A DNA stretch of 64,000 bases. It comes from Micromonospora thermarum. Its GTDB lineage: Bacteria; Actinomycetota; Actinomycetes; Mycobacteriales; Micromonosporaceae. Under the pieces are notes generated by a model. That model searched no databases, had not been told where the DNA came from, and saw only the letters and a list, made by a program, of their open reading frames with translations. The translations under genes were made by a program, and so were the position numbers. The DNA lies in the NCBI RefSeq assembly GCF_012034245.1, contig NZ_JAATEO010000011.1:124001-188000 (forward strand). Reading direction: 5' to 3'. This document shows, in pieces, positions 20,811 through 49,391 of this stretch (position 1 is its first letter; every line of letters begins with the position of its first letter).

Positions 20811-20883
20811 GACGTGGCTCCCGTCGGGACGGCGACAGTCTCGCGGCCATGCTAACCAGACATCATCCGCGGATGAGGAGAAG

Positions 20884-20954
20884 CTCCCGGGAGAGGATTC
20901 GAACCCCTACAATCAGGACCAAAACCTGACGTCCTGCCATTAGACGACCCGGGA
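20884..20954 (-). tRNA. tRNA-Gln (TTG anticodon)
   Basis: Read on the minus strand, the acceptor arms TCCCGGG (20954-20948) and CCCGGGA (20891-20885) pair perfectly, with G as discriminator at 20884. The anticodon arm TCAGG-TTTTGGT-CCTGA gives anticodon TTG, and the T arm carries GGGGTTCGAATCC. CCA is not encoded. A TTTAGA lies just upstream as a possible -10 box. Confidence 0.95.
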
Positions 20955-36219: not shown

Positions 36220-36303
36220 GAGACGGCGCTCCTTCATCGACGGCGGTAGGGATTGTTGGGACGACGGCCGCCACCGGCCACCTTCGCAGCCTACGATCGC
36301 GGG

Positions 36304-37992
36304 GTGACTCAGGCGTCGACAGCGCACCCCGCCGGCCAGGCCGAGCCGGAGCACGCCGCTCCCGAGGACCGGGACCAGGCACCCGGCGACCGGAACGGCG
36401 ACGTCCCCGGCGTGGTCCGGCGCCGGCTCGCCACCGTCGACGCCCACCTCGACGGGCGGTCCTGGCTGGCGACCGCGGTGATCGTCGCGATCGCGGCGAT
36501 CCTGCGCTTCCTCAACCTCAGCCACCCGCCGGGCAAGGTCTTCGACGAGGTCTACTACGCCCGCGACGCGTGGGGCCTGGTCGACAAGGGCGTCGAGTGG
36601 AACTACAAGGACGGCGGCCCGTCGTACGTGGTCCACCCGCCGCTCGGCAAGTGGCTGATCGGGCTCGGCGAGTGGGCCTTCGGATACTCCGACGCCGAGC
36701 ACCGCCTCTCGGCCGCCGGGCACCTGGTCACCACCGCCCCGGAGTTCGCCTGGCGGTTCTCGGCGGCGGTCGTCGGGACGCTGTCCGTGCTGCTGCTGGT
36801 GCGGATCGCCCGGCGGTTGTTCCGGTCGACCGTGCTGGCCTGCGCCGCCGGCCTGCTGCTCGCCCTCGACGGGTTCCACCTGGTGCTGTCGCGCACCGCG
36901 CTGCTCGACATCTTCCTGCTCTTCTTCGTGCTGGCCGCCTTCGGCGCGCTGGTGCTCGACCGGGACGCCCGCCGGCGCCGCTGGGCCCGGGCACTGGAGG
37001 CCGGGCTGGACCCGGCCCGGCCCGGTCGCGCCGGCCGCCCCCCGGGTGGCTGGCGGAACTGGCCGTGGTGGCGGCTGGCGGCCGGGGTGCTGTTCGGCTG
37101 CGCCTGCGCCGTGAAGTGGAGCGCCCTGTACTTCCTGCCGGCGTTCGCGCTGCTGGTGATCCTCTGGGAGGTCGGCGTGCGCCGCTCGGCGGGGGCACGC
37201 CGGCCCTGGCGGGACACCCTGCTCGACGAGGTGCCCTGGCTCGTGCTGGCCGGGCTGCTGATGGTGGTCACGTACGTGGCCACCTGGTCCGGCTGGCTGC
37301 TGGGGGACGAGGGCTACTACCGGGTGATCGACGCGCAACGGTGGCCGAACGCCCCGCTGAGCGACACCCCGGTGATCGGGGCGCTCGCCAACCTGATCGA
37401 GTACCACAAGGCCGCGTACGGCTTCCACGCCCAGCTGGACGACCCGCACAAGTACCAGTCGTGGCCGTGGCAGTGGCTGCTGCTGGGCCGGCCGGTCGCC
37501 TTCTACTGGTCCGGTGACGGGTCCTGCGGGGCGGCGAGCTGCGCCTCCGAGGTCCTGCTGCTCGGCACTCCCCTGCTCTGGTGGTCGTTCCTGCCGGCCC
37601 TGGTCGCGCTGGCCTGGCTGGGCCTCGCCCGGCGGGACTGGCGCGCCGGGGCGATCCTGCTGTGCGTGGCCGCCGGCCTGCTGCCGTGGTTCTGGTTCGC
37701 CGTCGACGGCGGGCGCACGATGTTCTCCTTCTACACCGCGCCGACGCTGCCGTTCCTGGTGCTGGCGGTGACGTACGTGCTGGGGGCGATCGTCGGCCCG
37801 CCCGACCCGGCCGGGGACGCCGCGGCGCGGGAGGCCAGCCGGGACCGCCGGCTCGTCGGCGGCGTCATCGCCGGGGCGTACGTGCTGCTGGTGGCGCTCT
37901 GCTTCGCGTACTTCTATCCGCTCTTCGTCGGCGAGACGATCCCGTACGCCGACTGGTCCAACCGGATGTGGCTGGACGGCCGCTGGATCTGA
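36304..37992 (+). CDS. pmt: Dolichyl-phosphate-mannose-type protein O-mannosyltransferase (562 aa)
   Basis: A GT39 integral membrane enzyme that transfers mannose from polyprenyl-phosphate-mannose to Ser/Thr of secreted proteins. The hallmark acidic pair appears as FDEVYYARDAW (about residues 80-90), followed by roughly ten membrane segments, and the C-terminal YPLFVGETIPYADWSNRMWLDGRWI is typical of actinobacterial Pmt. GTG at 36304 opens the frame. Secreted Thr/Ser/Pro-rich proteins encoded nearby (for example 39657-40247) could be substrates; that is inference. Confidence 0.94.
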   Translation: MTQASTAHPAGQAEPEHAAPEDRDQAPGDRNGDVPGVVRRRLATVDAHLDGRSWLATAVIVAIAAILRFLNLSHPPGKVFDEVYYARDAWGLVDKGVEWNYKDGGPSYVVHPPLGKWLIGLGEWAFGYSDAEHRLSAAGHLVTTAPEFAWRFSAAVVGTLSVLLLVRIARRLFRSTVLACAAGLLLALDGFHLVLSRTALLDIFLLFFVLAAFGALVLDRDARRRRWARALEAGLDPARPGRAGRPPGGWRNWPWWRLAAGVLFGCACAVKWSALYFLPAFALLVILWEVGVRRSAGARRPWRDTLLDEVPWLVLAGLLMVVTYVATWSGWLLGDEGYYRVIDAQRWPNAPLSDTPVIGALANLIEYHKAAYGFHAQLDDPHKYQSWPWQWLLLGRPVAFYWSGDGSCGAASCASEVLLLGTPLLWWSFLPALVALAWLGLARRDWRAGAILLCVAAGLLPWFWFAVDGGRTMFSFYTAPTLPFLVLAVTYVLGAIVGPPDPAGDAAAREASRDRRLVGGVIAGAYVLLVALCFAYFYPLFVGETIPYADWSNRMWLDGRWI

Positions 37993-38085: not shown

Positions 38086-38440
38086 CACGTAGACGCGCGC
38101 CCCGATCGCCTGCCACGGGGGAAGCGGGCGATTGGAGCGCGCAGGGAGAGCTTAACCAGCCCGGAGCAGCGGCACAACGGGTCGACTCGGGTCAGATTTC
38201 CGACCGACGCCACGCCGGACAAGTGGTTTACCTGCGACAGGTGACGGTCCGTCAGCCGACGGCCACGTGACGAGACGGTTAACGCGAGACGGTGCGAATC
38301 GGACCGGTCGGCCGAGCCGGCGACGGATTCCCGCCGTGTATCGATGGATTTAACATCCTCGTCATCCCCTGTGGGGTCCGCCGGCACTCGGCACGACTGC
38401 ACTGTCGGCCGACCCCCCGACCGATCGGATGGAGTACGCG

Positions 38441-39094
38441 ATGACCCGCACCCTCCGCTGGCTCGGTGGCCTTGTGGCCGCCGCCACCCTCTCGACCCTC
38501 GGCCTCGCCGCTCCGGCGCGTGCGGCGACGATCTCGGTGCCGCTGCGCACGCTCGTCGCCGACCTGCCCGTCGCGTCCGAGGTACGCACCGGGTACTCCC
38601 GCGACCTGTTCCCGCACTGGATCGACGCCGACGGGGACGGCTGCAACACCCGGTACGAGGTGCTGATCGCCGAGGCCACCACCAGCCCGTCGGTCGGCTC
38701 CGGCTGCTACCTGTCCGGCGGTCGCTGGTACTCCTACTACGACGCCGCCTACTGGACCAACCCATCCGATCTCGACATCGACCACCTGGTGCCGCTCGCG
38801 GAGGCCTGGGACTCGGGCGCCCGCAACTGGACGACCTCCCGCCGGCAGTCGTTCGCCAACGACCTCGGCGACGCGCGGTCGCTGGTGGCGGTGACCGACA
38901 ACGTCAACCAGGCCAAGGGCGACCAGGATCCGGCGACCTGGCTGCCGACGTACGAGAAGTGCCGCTACGTCCGGGAGTGGGCGGCGGTGAAGACCCGCTG
39001 GCGGCTGAGCGTGGACAGCGTCGAGAAGAACACGCTGACCAGTTGGGCCAACTCCTGCTCGAACGTTACGGTCACCGTGACCCACGCGTACTGA
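38441..39094 (+). CDS. Secreted HNH-type nuclease, DUF1524 (217 aa)
   Basis: A predicted secreted endonuclease. A Sec signal peptide spans residues 1-28 (MTRTLRW...ALA-type end PARA), with mature protein starting ATISVPLRTL. The DUF1524/HNH core is clear: DADGDGCNTRYEVL, the metal-binding DLDIDHLVPLAEAWDSGA and LVAVTDNVNQAKGDQDPATWLP. Four cysteines in the mature part may pair. ATG at 38441 is preceded by GGAG. Likely role is extracellular nucleic-acid degradation for nutrition or defence. It is followed after 19 bases by an unrelated MmcQ/YjbR gene. Confidence 0.92.
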   Translation: MTRTLRWLGGLVAAATLSTLGLAAPARAATISVPLRTLVADLPVASEVRTGYSRDLFPHWIDADGDGCNTRYEVLIAEATTSPSVGSGCYLSGGRWYSYYDAAYWTNPSDLDIDHLVPLAEAWDSGARNWTTSRRQSFANDLGDARSLVAVTDNVNQAKGDQDPATWLPTYEKCRYVREWAAVKTRWRLSVDSVEKNTLTSWANSCSNVTVTVTHAY

Positions 39095-39656: not shown

Positions 39657-40247
39657 GTGGCCGCTCACATTCACCATCACCAGACGCCGTACGTCCCCCT
39701 CGGAACGCCCGGCCGCAGCGCCGGTCAGCCCGTGACCGCCCCGGTGTTCGTCGACGTCACCGGACGGCGGCACCGCCTCGTCCGCCTCTGCGGGCTCCTC
39801 GTCGCCGCCGGGTCCCTCGTGTACATCCCGCTCGTCGCGACGGCCGTCCTACCTGGACCGGCCGCCCCGTACGGCGGTTCGGCACCCGCGGACGGCCGCT
39901 CGTTCCTGGCGGCGGCCGACCAGCCGTCGGTCCCGCCCGGCGAGGCCGACGTGCTGCTGGATCCGCTCGACGCTCCGCCCGCCGAGACGGCACCGGTCGT
40001 CGAGACCGAACCACCCGGACGGCCACCGGCACCCGTGGACGCACCGGTGGACCGGGGGCCCGATCCGGCCCCCCCGCCACCCGCCCCGCAGGCCATGCCC
40101 ACACCCGGCGGACCGGCCACCGTTCCGCCGACCAACCCGGAGCCCGCCCCACCGCCGTCGCCCTCGCCGACGGGCACCCCGCCCTCGCCGTCGCCGTCCC
40201 CGCCCGCCACGGACCTCCTCGACCCGGTCGGACGGTGGCCCGCCTGA
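39657..40247 (+). CDS. Pro-rich membrane-anchored extracellular protein (196 aa)
   Basis: Not a recognised family. A cytoplasmic N-terminus with HIHHHQ and an Arg patch precedes one membrane segment (LVRLCGLLVAAGSLVYIPLVATAVL, about 43-67). The rest is a long Pro/Ala/Thr/Ser-rich, low-complexity extracytoplasmic stalk ending PSPTGTPPSPSPSPPATD. Its stop codon overlaps the start of the trifunctional glycosyltransferase gene (TGATG), so the two are translated together. It may be a wall-spanning partner or scaffold for that enzyme and a possible O-mannosylation target. Confidence 0.75.
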   Translation: MAAHIHHHQTPYVPLGTPGRSAGQPVTAPVFVDVTGRRHRLVRLCGLLVAAGSLVYIPLVATAVLPGPAAPYGGSAPADGRSFLAAADQPSVPPGEADVLLDPLDAPPAETAPVVETEPPGRPPAPVDAPVDRGPDPAPPPPAPQAMPTPGGPATVPPTNPEPAPPPSPSPTGTPPSPSPSPPATDLLDPVGRWPA

Positions 40248-43200
40248 TGGCCCGTACCACGCTCGCCGCGTCGCCCTCCCGCCGGCGGCGCCCCGCCCGC
40301 CCCGGGCTCCGGACCGGCTGGACGGTCTGGTCGACGCTGTTCACGGTCCTGCTCTGCGTGCTGTTCGTCGAGGCGTACGCGAACTCCGAGTTCGTCCCCG
40401 ACCACGTCCGGGAGAGCGGCGGCCAGGCGCAGGTGCCCGCGGGGATCCGGTCCGGCGGCCCGGTGATCGACACCACCGAGGGGCGGGCGACCTCGTACCG
40501 GATGTCACCGCGCACCATCGCCCTCACCTTCGACGACGGCCCGGATCCGGTGTGGACACCGAAGGTCCTCGACCTGCTGCGCCGGCACCGGGCCGAGGCG
40601 ACGTTCTTCGTGGTCGGCAGCCAGGTGGCCCGCCACCCCGGGCTCACCCGGCGGATCGCCACCGAGGGCCACGAACTGGGTGTGCACAGCTTCAGCCACC
40701 CGGACCTGACGGTGCTGCCAGCCTGGCAGCGGCGGTTGGAGTACTCGCAGACCCAGCAGGCCATCGTGAGCACCGCCGGGGTCCGGACCAACCTGCTGCG
40801 CTTCCCGTACTCGTCCATGCCGCAGGCGATCGACGACAAGGCGTGGGCGGCGATCCGGGAGGCCGGCGACCTCGGCTACCTGACGGCGGTGAACGACACG
40901 GACAGCCGGGACTGGTCGCGACCCGGCCCCGAGGCCATGGTCCGCAACATGACGCCGCCGCCCGGACAGGGCGCGGTGGTCCTGCTGCACGACGCGGGCG
41001 GTGACCGGTCGCAGACCCTGGCCGCCCTGGACCGGTTCATCCCGATGATGACGGCCCGGGGATACCGGTTCACGACCATCAGCGACGGCGTCGACCGGGC
41101 GATGGCAACCGACGAGGAGGGGGCCGGACCGGTCGCGGGGAACGCACCGGTCTCCGGCCTCGAACGCTGGCGCGGCGGATCGGTCGTCCTGGCCGTGACC
41201 ATCGCCGACCTGTTCCTCGCGGCGCTGCGGTGGCTCTTCCTGCTGGTCGGCCTCCTGATGCTCGCCCGTACGCTGCTGCTGCTCGTCCTCGCCGGCCGAC
41301 ACGCGCGACGCCGGCGGTCGCGGCGCTGGCCGTGGGGTCCGCCGGTCACCGAACCGGTGTCGATCATCGTGCCGGCCTACAACGAGCAGGCGGGGATCGT
41401 GGCCACCGTCCGGTCGCTGGCCGACGGGGACCACCGGGGCATCGAGGTCATCGTCGTGGACGACGGGTCGACCGATGGGACCGCCGACCTGGTGGAAGCA
41501 CTCGGCCTGCCGAACGTCCAGGTCGTCCGCAAGCCCAACGGCGGCAAGCCGAGCGCCCTGAACACCGGGATCGCACACGCCCGGCACGAGATCATCGTGA
41601 TGGTCGACGGGGACACCGTGTTCGAACGCGACTCGGTCCGCCGGCTCATCGAGCCGTTCGCCGACCCCTCGGTGGGGGCGGTCGCCGGCAACGTCAAGGT
41701 CGCCAACCGCACGGGGCTGCTCGGGCGGTGGCAGCACATCGAGTACGTGATCGGCTTCAACCTGGACCGCCGGCTGTACGAGACGCTCGGCTGCATGCCC
41801 ACCGTCCCGGGCGCGATCGCGGCGTTCCGCCGTCGCGCGCTGCTCGCCGCCGGCGGCATGAGCGACGACACGCTGGCCGAGGACACCGACATCACCATGG
41901 CCGTCCTGCGGGCCGGTTGGCGGGTCGTGTACGAGGAGCGGGCCCGGGCCTGGACCGAGGCGCCCTCCTCGCTGGGGCAACTGTGGCGCCAGCGCTACCG
42001 CTGGAGCTACGGCACCATGCAGGCGATGTGGAAGCACCGCCGGGCGGTGTTCGACCGCGGTGCCTCGGGTCGCTTCGGCCGGTTCGGCCTGCCGGTGCTC
42101 GCACTGTTCGGGGTGGTGCTGCCCCTGCTGGGCCCGGTCCTGGACCTGATGGCCCTCTACGGGCTCGTCTTCCTCGGCGCCACGGAGACGGCCGTCGCGT
42201 GGGTGGCGATGCTGGCGGTCCAGGCGCTCACCGCACTGGTGGCCTTCCGGCTCGACCGGGAGCGGATCGCTCCGCTGTGGTCGCTGCCGGTGCAGCAGTT
42301 CGCGTACCGGCAACTGATGTACCTGGTGCTGGTCCGCTCGACGGTCACCGCGCTGACCGGGACGCGCCTGCGATGGCGGAAGCTGAAGCGCGCCGGCGAC
42401 CCGGCGGTCGGAGCACCCCGGGACCCGGTCGCGGCCGGGGGCGGCCGGGACCGATGGTTCGACCTGCTGCGCTCGGTAGCCCTGGCCCGGGTGATCGTCT
42501 ACCACATGTTCGGCTTCGCCTGGATGAGCTGGGCCTTCCCCGCCATGGGCGTCATGTTCGCCCTCGGTGGCTCACTGATGGCCCGATCGCTCGACCGGTC
42601 ACCCACCGGTGCGGTGAACGACCGCCTCCGGCGGCTCCTTCCCGCGCTCTGGGTGATGGGAGCCGTCGTCGTACCGGTGATGATCTGGCACGGCTGGTCC
42701 GACCGGCCGGCCTGGCCCGCGCTGCTGACCTGGGTGTTTCCGCTCGCCGAGCCGCCCGGCAGCGACTGGGCCCGGGACGTCACCGGTGTGCTGTGGTACC
42801 TGGTCGCGTTCCTCTGGCTGGTCCTGCTCTCCCCCGTACTGCTCGGGTTCTACCGGCGGTGGCCGCTGCCGACCGCGCTCCTCCCGCTCGCCGTCGTCGT
42901 GATCCTGCAGACCGCGACGCCGTCGCTCGGGCGCGCGGTCGTCGACTCGGTGGCGATCGACCTGGCCACGTTCGGGGCCTGCTGGATCGCCGGCTTCGCC
43001 CACCGCGACGGCCATCTGCGCCGGATCCCGTGGGCCGCCGTGGTGGCCCTGGCCGGTGTCTGCGCGGCGGGCGCGGTGGGCTGGGTCTGGACGCACCCGG
43101 AGGCCGGGTTCGACCTCAACGAGATTCCGGTCGCTCAGGCGTTCTACTCGCTCGGCTTCGCGCTGGTGCTGCTGCGGATGGCACCGCGGCTGGCCTGGCT

Positions 43201-43537
43201 GCGCCGGGTACGGCCACTCGACGGGCTGGTCACCACGCTCAACAGCCGTGCCCTGACCGTCTACCTGTGGCACAACGCGGCGATCGCGGTCTGTTTCGTC
43301 GTCGGCAACCAGGTCGACGCCTGGGAATTCGGGAAGATTGGTTACCTGGCGGTGGCGCTGGCGATCCTCGCCGTGGTCGTCGTGCTGCTCGGCTGGGTCG
43401 AGGACGTCAGCGCCAAGCGGAGACCTACCCTGGCCCCGTGGCGGACCCGGGCGACGCCGACGCCGGGGCGGCCACTTCCGGCCCGCGTACCGGAGCCGGC
43501 ACCGCCGCCCCGGCGACGGACGACTGTGGGGCGCTGA
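40247..43537 (+). CDS. Trifunctional NodB deacetylase-GT2 glycosyltransferase-acyltransferase 3 (1096 aa)
   Basis: One chain carries three enzymes. After TM1 (about 27-45), an extracytoplasmic NodB/CE4 deacetylase (about 85-285) shows TFDDGPD (94-100) and the metal pair H147/H151 in GVHSFSH. Two TMs (about 313-350) lead to a cytoplasmic processive GT2 domain (368-600) with DDG (405-407), DGD (454-456), AED (544-546) and QRYRW (582-586). After more TMs (613-700) comes an acyltransferase-3 domain (732-1075) with FDLLRSVALARVIVYHM and about ten TMs. The first two modules match MatB-type bifunctional proteins that make poly-beta-1,6-GlcNAc in Streptomyces; the third would acylate the product. The exact polymer is unknown. 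Confidence 0.92.
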   Translation: MARTTLAASPSRRRRPARPGLRTGWTVWSTLFTVLLCVLFVEAYANSEFVPDHVRESGGQAQVPAGIRSGGPVIDTTEGRATSYRMSPRTIALTFDDGPDPVWTPKVLDLLRRHRAEATFFVVGSQVARHPGLTRRIATEGHELGVHSFSHPDLTVLPAWQRRLEYSQTQQAIVSTAGVRTNLLRFPYSSMPQAIDDKAWAAIREAGDLGYLTAVNDTDSRDWSRPGPEAMVRNMTPPPGQGAVVLLHDAGGDRSQTLAALDRFIPMMTARGYRFTTISDGVDRAMATDEEGAGPVAGNAPVSGLERWRGGSVVLAVTIADLFLAALRWLFLLVGLLMLARTLLLLVLAGRHARRRRSRRWPWGPPVTEPVSIIVPAYNEQAGIVATVRSLADGDHRGIEVIVVDDGSTDGTADLVEALGLPNVQVVRKPNGGKPSALNTGIAHARHEIIVMVDGDTVFERDSVRRLIEPFADPSVGAVAGNVKVANRTGLLGRWQHIEYVIGFNLDRRLYETLGCMPTVPGAIAAFRRRALLAAGGMSDDTLAEDTDITMAVLRAGWRVVYEERARAWTEAPSSLGQLWRQRYRWSYGTMQAMWKHRRAVFDRGASGRFGRFGLPVLALFGVVLPLLGPVLDLMALYGLVFLGATETAVAWVAMLAVQALTALVAFRLDRERIAPLWSLPVQQFAYRQLMYLVLVRSTVTALTGTRLRWRKLKRAGDPAVGAPRDPVAAGGGRDRWFDLLRSVALARVIVYHMFGFAWMSWAFPAMGVMFALGGSLMARSLDRSPTGAVNDRLRRLLPALWVMGAVVVPVMIWHGWSDRPAWPALLTWVFPLAEPPGSDWARDVTGVLWYLVAFLWLVLLSPVLLGFYRRWPLPTALLPLAVVVILQTATPSLGRAVVDSVAIDLATFGACWIAGFAHRDGHLRRIPWAAVVALAGVCAAGAVGWVWTHPEAGFDLNEIPVAQAFYSLGFALVLLRMAPRLAWLRRVRPLDGLVTTLNSRALTVYLWHNAAIAVCFVVGNQVDAWEFGKIGYLAVALAILAVVVVLLGWVEDVSAKRRPTLAPWRTRATPTPGRPLPARVPEPAPPPRRRTTVGR

Positions 43538-43991: not shown

Positions 43992-44078
43992 ATGGTCGTC
44001 GACAAGCTGACGGTGGACCGGGTGCCCGCCGGGCGGGAGCGCGTCACGTCGTACCTGTCCGGGAGCTCCGATGCGTGA
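43992..44078 (+). CDS. Possible 28-codon upstream ORF coupled to the PPTase gene
   Basis: ATG at 43992 opens MVVDKLTVDRVPAGRERVTSYLSGSSDA and its TGA (44076-44078) lies just inside the next gene, whose ATG is at 44071. The close overlap would allow translational coupling. No ribosome site is obvious, and the peptide has no known relative, so it may simply be non-coding leader. Confidence 0.3.
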   Translation: MVVDKLTVDRVPAGRERVTSYLSGSSDA

Positions 44079-44727
44079 CCTGCTGCCACCGGTGGTCGCG
44101 GTCGTGGTGGCCGAGTCCGCCGACTGGGTGGGCGACCTGCTGCCCGCCGAGCTGGCCTGCCTCGGCGAACGCGCGGTCGAGAGCCGGCGGCGTGACTTCA
44201 CCGCCGGCCGCGTCTGCGCCCGGCGTGCCATCGCCGCGCTCGGCCTGCCGCCGACCGCGGTGCCGGCCGCAGCCGACCGCGCACCGGTCTGGCCGGCCGG
44301 GGTGGTCGGCGCGATCACCCACACCCGCGGCTACTGCGCCGCCGCGGTCGCCCGCGCCGGGGAGGTCCGGTCCGTCGGCCTCGACGCCGAACAGCACAAG
44401 GACCTCACCCCGGGGGTACGCCGCGCGATCCTCCTGGACGAGGAGGAGGATCACCTGGCGCGGCTGCCGGTGGGCGTCTCCTGGCCGGCGGTCGTGTTCA
44501 GCGCCAAGGAGACGGTCTACAAGGTGTGGAACCCGCTGGTCGGCACCTGGCTGGACTTCCACGACGCGCATGTGGAACTGGACCCGGAGGCCGGGACGTT
44601 CACCGCCCGGATCGCCCCCGCCCGGGTGGCCGACGCCCCGGTCGTCGACCCGCCGGCCGTCATCTCCGGCCGCTTCGCCGTCGAGCCGGCGCTGGTCCGC
44701 ACCGCGGCCGTCCTGCATCCGGAGTGA
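44071..44727 (+). CDS. 4'-phosphopantetheinyl transferase, Sfp/EntD type (218 aa)
   Basis: Transfers the phosphopantetheine arm of CoA to carrier proteins of polyketide or nonribosomal peptide synthases (or fatty-acid synthase). The three PPTase motifs are in view: VVGAITHTRGYCAA, SVGLDAEQH with metal-binding D and E, and FSAKETVYKVWNP. No carrier-protein gene lies in the window, so it is probably a global activator for clusters elsewhere. GGGAG precedes the ATG. Confidence 0.93.
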   Translation: MRDLLPPVVAVVVAESADWVGDLLPAELACLGERAVESRRRDFTAGRVCARRAIAALGLPPTAVPAAADRAPVWPAGVVGAITHTRGYCAAAVARAGEVRSVGLDAEQHKDLTPGVRRAILLDEEEDHLARLPVGVSWPAVVFSAKETVYKVWNPLVGTWLDFHDAHVELDPEAGTFTARIAPARVADAPVVDPPAVISGRFAVEPALVRTAAVLHPE

Positions 44728-46491: not shown

Positions 46492-49026
46492 TCACCGCAC
46501 CGTCACCGCGACCGTCTCGCTGGGCTGACTCTCGGTGGTGTCGTCGGTGGTGGTGACTCGGAACTCGTACCGGTGGCCCTCGACCAGCAGCACGGCAGTC
46601 GACTGGGTCTCGGTCACCGAATTCTGGTCGGCCCGCCACGCCTCCCCGGCGGTCGCGTCCCGTAGGTACACCCGGTAGGCGAACCCGGGACCGGCCGACT
46701 GCCAGCTCAGTCGCACCTCGTCGGAGCCGGCCGCCGTCGCGACGAGCCCGGTCGGGGTGGGCAGTTGGGGCGTTGCCCGGACGGGTTCGCTCAAGGGGCC
46801 GGGACCGGCCTGGTTGACCGCGGCCACCGCGAACTCGTACTCGTGGCCGTTGCGCAGCAGCGCGATGGTGGCCCGGTCGCCCTGCACGGGCACCTTCTCC
46901 TCGGTGAACTCCCGCTCCCGTGCGGTGAGGTCGCGCCGGTAGACCCGGTGCCACCCGCCCGGCACCGACGACCGCCAGGTCAACTCGACGCTGCCCACCC
47001 CGGCCTTGGCCCGTAGGTCGCGCGGCGCGACCTGGGGCGGGGTGAACCGGGCACGGACCCGCACCGGGGCGGAGAGGGCCCCCTCGCCGCCGCTGTTGAC
47101 CGCGCTCACCGCGAACTCGTGCTCGTGGTCGTGTTCGAGGTGCAGGGCGAGGTGCTCGGGCTGGGTGTCCAGCGAGGGCATGTCGAGGCGGGTCTGCTTC
47201 CGGGTGAGGTCCCGGCGGTAGACCCGGTAGGAGATGCCCGACCCCAGCGTCTTCCAGGTCACCCGTACGTTCCCGTCGGTCAGTGGAACGGCGGTGAGCC
47301 CGGCGGGCGGGGCGGGCGGGGTGACGAAGGCGGTCGCCCGGGCTGGCGCCGAGGGTGGGCTGTTCCCGCCGCCGCCGACCGCGACCAGGGTGAACTCGTA
47401 CGTCCGGGCGTGCCACAGCGACCGCACGGTGGCGCTGGTGCCGATGTAGGTGCCGACCAGCGTCGCGTCCGGCCGGCCCTCGGTGATGTCGCGCCGGTAC
47501 ACCCGGAACACCTGGACGAACGGCAGCGGATCCCAGCTCAACGCGACGTCCCCGGCGACCCCGGCCACCGCGCGCAGGCCGCCGGGAGGCGGTGGCGGCG
47601 GCACCGTGGCCGTCATCCGGGCCACCGGCGACGGCGGGCTCTCGCCACGCTGCCCGACGGTGGTCACCTGGAACTCGTATTCGTGGCCGTTGACCAGGAA
47701 ATCGGCAGACCAGCGGGTCGCGGTCGTCGGCTCGCCGAGCCGGACGAAGTGGGTCTGTCCGGCGGTGACGTCGCGCCGGTGCACCTGGTGCCGCAGCTCG
47801 TCGTCGGCTCGCCCCGCGCGCCAGGCCAGGTCGGCGTTCCCGGCACCCTGGGCCACGGCGGTCAGCTCCTCCGGTGCCGGCGGCAGGTCCCGCCGGTCCG
47901 GCCGGCGGCGCGGCCAGTCGGCCTCCACGAAGCGCGGCCGGTAGACGGCGGCGTCGGCGTACGTGACCGCGTCGTCGAAGTTGTTGACGTTGTACGAGAT
48001 CAACAGCTTGCCGGGCCTGGCCAGCTCCGGGTGCAGGTCGGCGTCGTAGACGATGTGCCCGGCCGCGTTCTCCGGTGCCCGGTACAGGTAGTCGGGCCCC
48101 TCGAACGGCCCGGTCGGTCCGGCCGCGGAGTACGCCACCAGCTCGGCGCTGAGCGCCAGGTTGTTCTCGTGGGTGACGAGCACGTACCGCCCGCCGACCC
48201 GCTGCACCCCGTACGCTGTGCCGACGCCGCTCAGCACACGGGCCGAGGCGGCGACCTGCGGCACCCAGGTGGTGCCGGTCCAGAACTCCCACGCGCCGCT
48301 CAGGTCGTCACCGGCGATCCGGGCGACGTGCGCGAACTTCGCCTCGCCGGCCGCCTCGGTGCCGTACACGTAGGTGTGCCCGCCGTCCCGCAGTAGGGCG
48401 GAGCCCCAGGAGATCCGGTCGTCGAGCGGCAACGGTCGGACCCCGGTCGGGGTGAGCGCCGGCAGCGTGAAGGTGGCCAGCGCGGTGCCCATCAGGACGT
48501 GGTCCAGCGGCCCGGCGCCGGTGCGGCGGTAGCGGTTGACCAGCACCTGGAGCGTCTCGCCGACGACCTGGGCGTCGCCGATCCAGTAGAACTGGCCGGC
48601 CGCCGGCGGCGGCACCAGCGACGCCGGCACCTCGGCCGTGCCGCCGTGCACGGTCTCGCGCAGCTCGTCGCCCTGCTGCACCACGGCCGAGTTGTGGATG
48701 AACGGCGCGGTGCGCGGTCGCGAGCCGTCCGCGTTGACGGCGCCGAGGAACGTGTCGGAGAAGAGCCAGAGGATGCGGCCGTCGGGAAGCCGTACCGACG
48801 CCGTCCGGTCGGCGCCGCTCCACTGGCCGGAGGCGTCGCCGTAGGTGTCGAAAAGGGCGGTGAGCCGGGCCGCCGCGATGCCGCCGCCCTGCTGCGGCGA
48901 CCGCGGAACGGCCGCAGCCAAGGCAGCAGCCAGGGCCGCCACCAGGCAGATCGCGTACAGGACGAGCGGCCAACGGGCCTGTCGGCGTGCGCCGCGCCGC
49001 CCCGGGCCGGAGTCGGCCACCGTCAC
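46492..49026 (-). CDS. Membrane-anchored protein with five fibronectin III domains (844 aa)
   Basis: An N-terminal membrane anchor (PLVLYAICLVAALAAALAAAV, about 20-40) is followed by an extracytoplasmic domain of about 330 residues that resembles DUF4185/glycosidase-like beta propellers (FDTYGDASGQWSGADRTASVRLPDGRILWLFSDTFLG, HNSAVVQ, FYWIGDAQV, NNLALSAELVAYSA). Five fibronectin type III domains follow, starting near residues 383, 475, 572, 665 and 755. Each carries a YRVYRRDLT-like strand. The arrangement suggests a cell-surface carbohydrate-binding or hydrolytic protein with FN3 spacers. No LPXTG motif is seen. GTG start at 49026. Confidence 0.85.
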   Translation of the reverse strand: MTVADSGPGRRGARRQARWPLVLYAICLVAALAAALAAAVPRSPQQGGGIAAARLTALFDTYGDASGQWSGADRTASVRLPDGRILWLFSDTFLGAVNADGSRPRTAPFIHNSAVVQQGDELRETVHGGTAEVPASLVPPPAAGQFYWIGDAQVVGETLQVLVNRYRRTGAGPLDHVLMGTALATFTLPALTPTGVRPLPLDDRISWGSALLRDGGHTYVYGTEAAGEAKFAHVARIAGDDLSGAWEFWTGTTWVPQVAASARVLSGVGTAYGVQRVGGRYVLVTHENNLALSAELVAYSAAGPTGPFEGPDYLYRAPENAAGHIVYDADLHPELARPGKLLISYNVNNFDDAVTYADAAVYRPRFVEADWPRRRPDRRDLPPAPEELTAVAQGAGNADLAWRAGRADDELRHQVHRRDVTAGQTHFVRLGEPTTATRWSADFLVNGHEYEFQVTTVGQRGESPPSPVARMTATVPPPPPPGGLRAVAGVAGDVALSWDPLPFVQVFRVYRRDITEGRPDATLVGTYIGTSATVRSLWHARTYEFTLVAVGGGGNSPPSAPARATAFVTPPAPPAGLTAVPLTDGNVRVTWKTLGSGISYRVYRRDLTRKQTRLDMPSLDTQPEHLALHLEHDHEHEFAVSAVNSGGEGALSAPVRVRARFTPPQVAPRDLRAKAGVGSVELTWRSSVPGGWHRVYRRDLTAREREFTEEKVPVQGDRATIALLRNGHEYEFAVAAVNQAGPGPLSEPVRATPQLPTPTGLVATAAGSDEVRLSWQSAGPGFAYRVYLRDATAGEAWRADQNSVTETQSTAVLLVEGHRYEFRVTTTDDTTESQPSETVAVTVR

Positions 49027-49309: not shown

Positions 49310-49317
49310 GAGCTGGG

Positions 49318-49391
49318 TGGAGCTGAGGGGATTTGAACCCCTGACCCCCTCGATGCGAACGAGGTGCGCTACCGGTCTGCGCCACAGCCCC
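49318..49391 (-). tRNA. tRNA-Ala (CGC anticodon)
   Basis: Minus-strand acceptor GGGGCTG pairs with CAGCTCC (one G-T pair) and A is the discriminator at 49318. The anticodon arm CCTCG-TTCGCAT-CGAGG gives anticodon CGC, and the T arm is GGGGTTCAAATCCCC. CCA is not encoded. It is the gene after the sepX/glpR cluster, as in other actinomycetes. Confidence 0.95.

Follow-up and report, generated by a model that had tools for sequence, protein, structure and literature searches.

The 64,000-nucleotide window analysed here (Micromonospora thermarum, assembly GCF_012034245.1, contig NZ_JAATEO010000011.1, positions 124,001 to 188,000) contains a gene, at 40247-43537 on the forward strand, which joins a NodB-type deacetylase of carbohydrate esterase family 4 (CE4), a glycosyltransferase family 2 (GT2) synthase and an acyltransferase-3 (AT3) domain in one polypeptide of 1096 residues. 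This three-domain fusion is real, conserved and uncommon. Each of the domains was known before, as was the two-domain protein MatB of Streptomyces; the three-domain chain is unnamed in the literature examined, and no fusion of synthase, deacetylase and AT3 was found named in the searches made, which are weak evidence given their open-access coverage only. The gene probably forms part of a mat-type locus (mat being the mycelial aggregation locus known for pellet formation in Streptomyces) for an exopolysaccharide resembling poly-N-acetylglucosamine (PNAG), in which matB has become fused to the AT3 gene that follows it in Streptomyces, and the product would be O-acylated and partly deacetylated. 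If this is true, the polypeptide and MatA would carry out every stage, from polymerisation and extrusion to acylation, at a single membrane site. The initial annotation of the window had recognised the fusion; it had not noticed the putatively coupled MatA-like gene upstream, that the AT3 is a fused form of the SCO2961-type gene, or the recurrence of the arrangement in other actinomycetes.

Three catalytic domains and a MatA-like partner

The features of the locus are as follows, with the basis of each assignment in brackets.

39657-40247, + strand: MatA-like gene (196 amino acids), with the motif PVFVDVTGRR in its N-terminal part, one likely transmembrane helix and a proline-rich tail (motif, profile)
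40247-43537, + strand: fusion gene, NodB/CE4 deacetylase, GT2 synthase and AT3 in one chain of 1096 amino acids (open reading frame, Pfam, alignment, model)
40310-40381, + strand: predicted N-terminal transmembrane helix, residues 22-45 (hydropathy; model, of low confidence here)
40502-41101, + strand: deacetylase domain, predicted outside the membrane, approximately residues 86-285 (Pfam; structural match to the Bc1960 deacetylase, 4l1g)
41156-41317, + strand: long transmembrane helix by which the chain is taken to re-enter the cell, residues 304-357 (hydropathy, model)
41354-42013, + strand: GT2 synthase domain, predicted cytosolic, residues 370-589 (Pfam; PgaC_IcaA as best NCBIfam model; structural match)
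42062-42358, + strand: predicted C-terminal membrane helices of the synthase, residues 606-704 (hydropathy, model)
42359-42445, + strand: predicted flexible linker, residues 705-733, varying in sequence and length between fused groups (confidence below 50 over residues 706-733; linker comparison)
42452-43387, + strand: AT3 domain, residues 736-1047 (Pfam PF01757; three AT3 motifs)

The open reading frame is uninterrupted from its ATG at 40247 to the stop codon ending at 43537 (1096 codons and the stop), with an alternative GTG start at 40235, 12 bases upstream of the ATG. Third-position GC lies between 0.88 and 0.97, in one frame throughout, in all 300-base bins inside the gene, and the constancy of this pattern argues that no frameshift has joined separate genes. 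An assembly or frameshift artefact, which the initial annotation had named as a finding that would undo its proposal, is ruled out by the codon-position GC together with recurrence, since the fusion is carried by 15 of 80 related named loci and by at least eight of 41 genomes of the genus.

As had been proposed, all three domains are recognised by Pfam within this one frame: Polysacc_deac_1 at residues 86-206 (3.4e-33), Glycos_transf_2 at residues 372-532 (8.5e-34) and Acyl_transf_3 (PF01757) at residues 736-1047 (3.8e-22; 79.2 bits against a gathering cut-off of 31), the last lying in the stretch (residues 732-1075) on whose AT3 similarity the initial annotation had staked its reading. The same three families are matched by all 16 fused proteins of alignment A1. 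Invariant in these 16 are D96 D97, H147, H151, R185, D217, D219, D222 W223 and H248 D249 of the deacetylase, among them the CE4 metal-binding and catalytic residues, and D405 D406, D454xD456, E545 D546 and Q582 R583 x R585 W586 of the synthase, residues that we take to be the named motifs of these two enzyme families. The AT3 motifs R-X10-H (R742-X10-H753), RXXR (R793xxR796) and FXXXXXL (F771X5L777) are likewise kept in 16 of 16; all three are named, together with SXXXY of transmembrane helix 9 (TMH9), in the available text of PMC9833829. The main catalytic motifs of all three domains, as pointed out in the initial annotation, are kept; SXXXY, to which we return below, is not.

A full-length model of the protein has a mean predicted local distance difference test score (pLDDT) of 81.3 and a predicted template modelling score (pTM) of 0.56, on which basis the domains can be trusted and their mutual placement cannot. 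In structure searches with this model the deacetylase matches CE4 structures at Z 21-26, the Bc1960 deacetylase (4l1g) at Z 26.4 with a root mean square deviation (rmsd) of 2.1 over 207 residues, and the synthase with its flanking helices matches a hyaluronan synthase (8snc) at Z 33.0 with an rmsd of 2.9 over 371 residues. The synthase part superposes on cellulose synthases too; hyaluronan and cellulose synthases export their own chains. AT3 matches were absent among the 50 matches listed per search of the full model, which barely probes the AT3 fold, and this part folded poorly by itself when no alignment was supplied (mean pLDDT 54). Two marginal matches of the AT3 part to tweety homologues (phmmer against the PDB) were taken as chance.

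Hydropathy and the model also support, as a prediction, the topology first suggested for the protein, with the deacetylase outside and the synthase inside. The linker is preceded by the basic stretch RLRWRKLKR, and the AT3 proteins Oac and OafB are described in the available text of PMC9833829 as having a cytosolic N-terminus, which together suggest that the linker is cytosolic. The chain would thus begin inside, pass its deacetylase outside and return for the synthase and the linker, and the AT3 would have its acyl-CoA entry inside and its acceptor side outside.

The upstream gene and the fusion share one base, the TGA of the former running into the ATG of the latter (TGATG), an overlap that suggests translational coupling. 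The upstream protein matches no Pfam domain; in it, PVFVDVTGRR precedes a hydrophobic stretch, and among the 80 best related loci 64 have a gene with this motif ahead of the synthase. A profile of the motif region matched eight of the remaining 16 (seven at E <=4e-6, and L019 weakly at 0.0033), which gives a MatA-like gene before the synthase in 72 of 80 loci; the other eight loci start at a contig edge and leave at most 270 bases ahead of the synthase frame. For 61 of the 64 motif loci the synthase frame offers a start codon at -7 to +2 relative to the MatA stop, a spacing that random positions satisfy in 16.5% of 3200 draws; in the other three the start codon comes 38, 86 and 150 bases further on. 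The gene is called MatA-like because the order in Streptomyces griseus (L088), namely LysR regulator, MatA-like gene, NodB-GT2 (MatB-like) gene and AT3 gene, fits the mat order as given in the available text of PMC4391728 and PMC5972031, although the regulator is of the IclR type in the 2015 mat paper and of the LysR type in L088.

The comparison with MatB of Streptomyces made by the initial annotation holds up well, given the NodB-GT2 fusion, the PgaC-like synthase and the MatA-like gene upstream. In Streptomyces coelicolor and Streptomyces lividans, MatA-MatB (SCO2963-SCO2962) and SCO2961 likewise comprise a NodB-GT2 protein, a coupled upstream membrane protein and an IcaC-like AT3 alongside, as described in the accessible parts of PMC4391728 and PMC5972031. 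There, however, the AT3 is a separate gene, whereas here it is the C-terminal third of the same polypeptide, attached via a predicted disordered linker. Jobs that appear to be joined here are split over two or three proteins in the better-studied relatives. Synthase, deacetylase, AT3 (IcaC) and a small membrane helper (IcaD) also occur together in IcaADBC of staphylococci, but there each is a protein of its own, four in all, whereas here a single chain combines three activities and the helper is MatA-like. Gram-negative GT domains fused to PgaB-type deacetylases offer another fusion of a glycosyltransferase with a PNAG-type deacetylase, though the available text of PMC7112194 mentions no acyltransferase in them. 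In the AT3-SGNH fusions OafB and OatA an AT3 is covalently joined to a partner that acts on a glycan outside the membrane; that partner is an SGNH domain, thought according to the text available to finish acylation, whereas here it is a synthase-deacetylase that would supply the acceptor chain.

Distribution and descent of the fusion

The relatives considered are the best 80 loci from named genomes, on which the spread of the locus beyond Micromonosporaceae rests. Besides the 15 with AT3 in the same frame, eight carry it immediately downstream as a frame of its own, and in 57 the stretch fetched shows none, the downstream flank being shorter than 4 kb in five of the 57. The fused loci come from eight Micromonospora, one Micromonosporaceae isolate, three Streptomyces, two Saccharomonospora and one metagenome bin, which extends the mat-type locus to Micromonosporaceae and Saccharomonospora. 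The eight split loci belong to Streptomyces and Kitasatospora, and their AT3, of the same kind, is first matched 60-147 bases past the synthase stop; S. flaveus and S. beijiangensis have one fused and one split copy each. A plasmid search returned 19 records, none covering 80% of the query.

Two surveys looked closer to the window, scoring up to 18 candidates per genome in the genus and the first 12 in the family, so that absences among the candidates scored are not firm. No match at 1e-80 was seen in 14 of the 41 genomes of the genus, and an intact fusion was present in two of 61 evenly drawn Micromonosporaceae genomes, the window's own and G019, in which the match sits at the same place as in M. 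pattaloongensis. The order matA, matB and a separate AT3 in the same direction occurs in G026 and G042, and in the latter (L123, G042:C1:5026500-5032500) the start of the AT3 match falls in the final five bases of the synthase frame; this overlap of a few bases could represent an intermediate on the way to fusion. In G049 the AT3 lies beside the synthase in the opposite direction, and G068 has a frame-broken matA-matB-AT3 region (L124, G068:C1:2983500-2989500) whose synthase parts lie in different frames, owing either to sequencing error or to decay of the gene. Of the 21 family genomes that have a close synthase (at least 60%), 11 had an AT3 of at least 50% identity among those listed, as against one of the 40 others (p 8e-6); once the five genomes in which the pair is fused, adjacent or frame-broken are set aside, the counts are six of 16 and one of 40 (p 0.0014). 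The cut-offs were chosen once the list had been seen, and the statistics ignore kinship.

The window's own genome has a second, two-domain MatB-like synthase (57% identical; G000:C45:301608-303578; L002, L132). It is likewise preceded by a MatA-like gene of its own, and the 7.5 kb fetched contain no AT3 match. Elsewhere, mat-type AT3 genes (L125, L126, L127, L129 and L130) show no synthase match in the 6 kb fetched, and a two-domain synthase is present elsewhere in those genomes.

In a tree of the synthase core, built by a quick method from 60 of 90 distinct core sequences (30 two-domain rows having been thinned by hand), the fused forms fall into three groups among split and AT3-free relatives. 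One consists of Saccharomonospora and the metagenome bin; a second, of Streptomyces, adjoins the split Streptomyces forms and includes L101, which has no AT3 in its 3.7 kb; the third, of Micromonospora, lies among AT3-free forms. AT3 trees were made from 31 and from 40 rows with duplicates dropped, and the larger returns the same three groups, its starred branches forcing at least three changes. The Micromonospora fusions share a 13-row group of this tree (support 94/97, inner order unsettled) with two split copies and the frame-broken copy, and the fusion of M. pattaloongensis may stand apart from the other nine. The window's genome also has a standalone AT3, which falls outside the branch of the mat-linked ones. 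Measured from one fixed motif to another, linker length ranges from 18 to 75 residues, and linker sequences vary from one fused group to the next.

A single origin of all fusions was considered and set aside: the approximately unbiased (AU) test rejected a tree constrained to keep the 16 fused cores together on a single side of a branch (p 1e-65; 46 of 90 rows, quick tree, grouping defined after a first tree was seen). The pattern is in keeping with repeated fusion of matB and AT3 genes that have long been neighbours. Independent fusions are not thereby proven, since in unrooted trees three gains look the same as one gain followed by later splits.

Probable product and alternative readings

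The mat-type reading takes its start from what is directly established, namely domain content, motifs, gene order, the overlap with the MatA-like gene, recurrence and tree position. According to the text available, the mat locus of S. lividans makes PNAG, as judged by antibody staining and by sensitivity to dispersin B and periodate, with the signal gone in matA or matB mutants, and SCO2961 is termed an icaC orthologue (PMC5972031); AT3 proteins are thought to move acyl groups across the membrane onto sugars (PMC9558356). Because MatAB makes a PNAG-like polymer, its AT3 is likened to IcaC and AT3s are taken to acylate sugars, the product here is taken to be a partly deacetylated, O-acylated PNAG-like polymer, and the acylated, deacetylated GlcNAc (N-acetylglucosamine) polymer of the initial annotation is thus likely. 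The GT2 domain and the MatA-like protein would polymerise GlcNAc from UDP-GlcNAc in the cytosol, the chain would be threaded out through the synthase's own membrane helices, and the deacetylase domain outside would strip part of the N-acetyl groups. The AT3 would then move an acyl group, most likely acetyl or succinyl, from cytosolic acyl-CoA to hydroxyls of the same emerging chain. The covalent tether would place the AT3 beside the chain exit, and this may substitute for the SGNH partner domain needed by some AT3 enzymes. The polymer may serve in hyphal aggregation and adhesion.

Several observations weigh against this reading. Biochemistry on this fusion was not found in the literature searched, and the MatA-like protein resembles its counterparts in S. 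griseus and Micromonosporaceae at the level of a short motif and a profile. The best NCBIfam match, PgaC_IcaA (TIGR03937; 2e-55), is followed by NodB and PdaB for the deacetylase, and none reaches its cut-off; the synthase scores 188.4 bits against a curated cut-off of 422.3 for PgaC/IcaA, so that a beta-1,6 linkage is taken over from MatB by analogy. The deacetylase is nearest NodB, PdaB and PgdA types, enzymes that act on beta-1,4 substrates. The AT3 matched no IcaC-named NCBIfam family, its sole listed match being VanT at chance level (E 0.16), and it lacks SXXXY: Tyr1006 is kept, Ala1002 stands in place of Ser, and both are invariant in 16 of 16 fused proteins. This motif is called a further conserved region of AT3, and not an absolutely conserved one, in the available text of PMC9833829. 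Finally, the 57 relatives that have no AT3 in the stretch fetched imply that acylation is dispensable for the core system.

The AT3 might instead act on a different surface glycan or lipid, the fusion serving only for co-expression or co-location. Members of the same wider AT3 subfamily without a synthase match in the 6 kb fetched occur in the family genomes G017, G029, G035, G040 and G063, and since no synthase match lies nearby, the acceptor of these standalone AT3s need not be this polymer. This alternative is unlikely, however, given that 23 of 80 loci have the AT3 either joined to the synthase or next to it, that it is fused in three tree groups and that the standalone AT3 in the window's genome falls outside the mat-linked branch. 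It is more improbable that the product is a beta-1,4, chitosan-like polymer, still deacetylated and acylated. The affinities of the deacetylase would suit such a product, and much the same is said of MatB (available text of PMC5972031). Yet the MatAB product is dispersin B-sensitive and calcofluor staining is unchanged in a matAB mutant of S. lividans (same source); the synthase, moreover, prefers the PgaC_IcaA model (188 bits) to those of NodC (90) and CelA (56).

The older idea about IcaC, that it aids the chain across the membrane and acylates nothing, can also be applied to the AT3 part. IcaC was first thought to be a PNAG transporter; whether it is one or instead an O-succinyltransferase counts as an outstanding problem in the accessible part of a 2022 review (PMC9558356). 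Such a role is nevertheless distinctly improbable here: the three AT3 motifs are kept throughout the aligned fused proteins, a local AT3 is missing in 57 of 80 relatives, and the enzymes on which the synthase part superposes, hyaluronan and cellulose synthases, export their own product. A 2023 paper, in the text available, speculates that IcaC is placed against IcaAD and acylates the emerging PNAG directly (PMC9833829). A broader proposal, which we advance tentatively and with slightly more doubt than confidence, is that an IcaC-type AT3 has been fused more than once to a PNAG synthase-deacetylase and acts on the nascent chain in the manner of such a placement, with no SGNH partner; a single polypeptide together with MatA would in that case make partly deacetylated, O-acylated PNAG, and IcaC would be a chain-coupled O-acyltransferase and not an exporter. 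A natural covalent AT3-synthase in soil actinomycetes makes IcaC-type action on PNAG directly testable.

A short lipo-chito-oligosaccharide signal resembling Nod factors, suggested by the comparison of the initial annotation with NodB, NodC, NodX and NodL, is highly improbable. The NodB (TIGR04243) and NodC (TIGR04242) models do match, at 134.3 bits against a cut-off of 240 and at 90.5 against 550, and NodX is an AT3 protein, the only fair parallel of the pair NodX and NodL, since NodL is not known to be one; but the synthase is nearest PgaC/IcaA, not NodC, and the genes identified around the fusion (protein O-mannosyltransferase (PMT), HNH, YjbR and 4'-phosphopantetheinyl transferase (PPTase)) are not nod-like. 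MatAB, the closest system to have been studied, yields a polymer resembling PNAG (PMC5972031, as far as its available text goes).

Neighbouring genes

Two genes flank the mat-type locus on the same strand.

36253-37992, + strand: PMT gene, upstream of the locus
44071-44727, + strand: PPTase gene, downstream, matched beside the fusion in L009, L010 and L014 too

A PMT match upstream of the synthase recurs in 22 of the 57 AT3-free loci and in the fused locus L009, so the genomic site seen in the window is shared. Between the PMT gene and the MatA-like gene, 38429-39094 (+) encodes a small protein with GmrSD_C/HNH nuclease similarity and an apparent signal peptide. Further downstream, 46492-49026 (-) encodes a large predicted protein, which could be a surface protein and in which five fibronectin type III stretches accompany DUF5005/DUF4185-like parts. 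The window also contains genes for tRNA-Ala (CGC) at 49316-49391 (-) and tRNA-Gln (TTG) at 20883-20954 (-).

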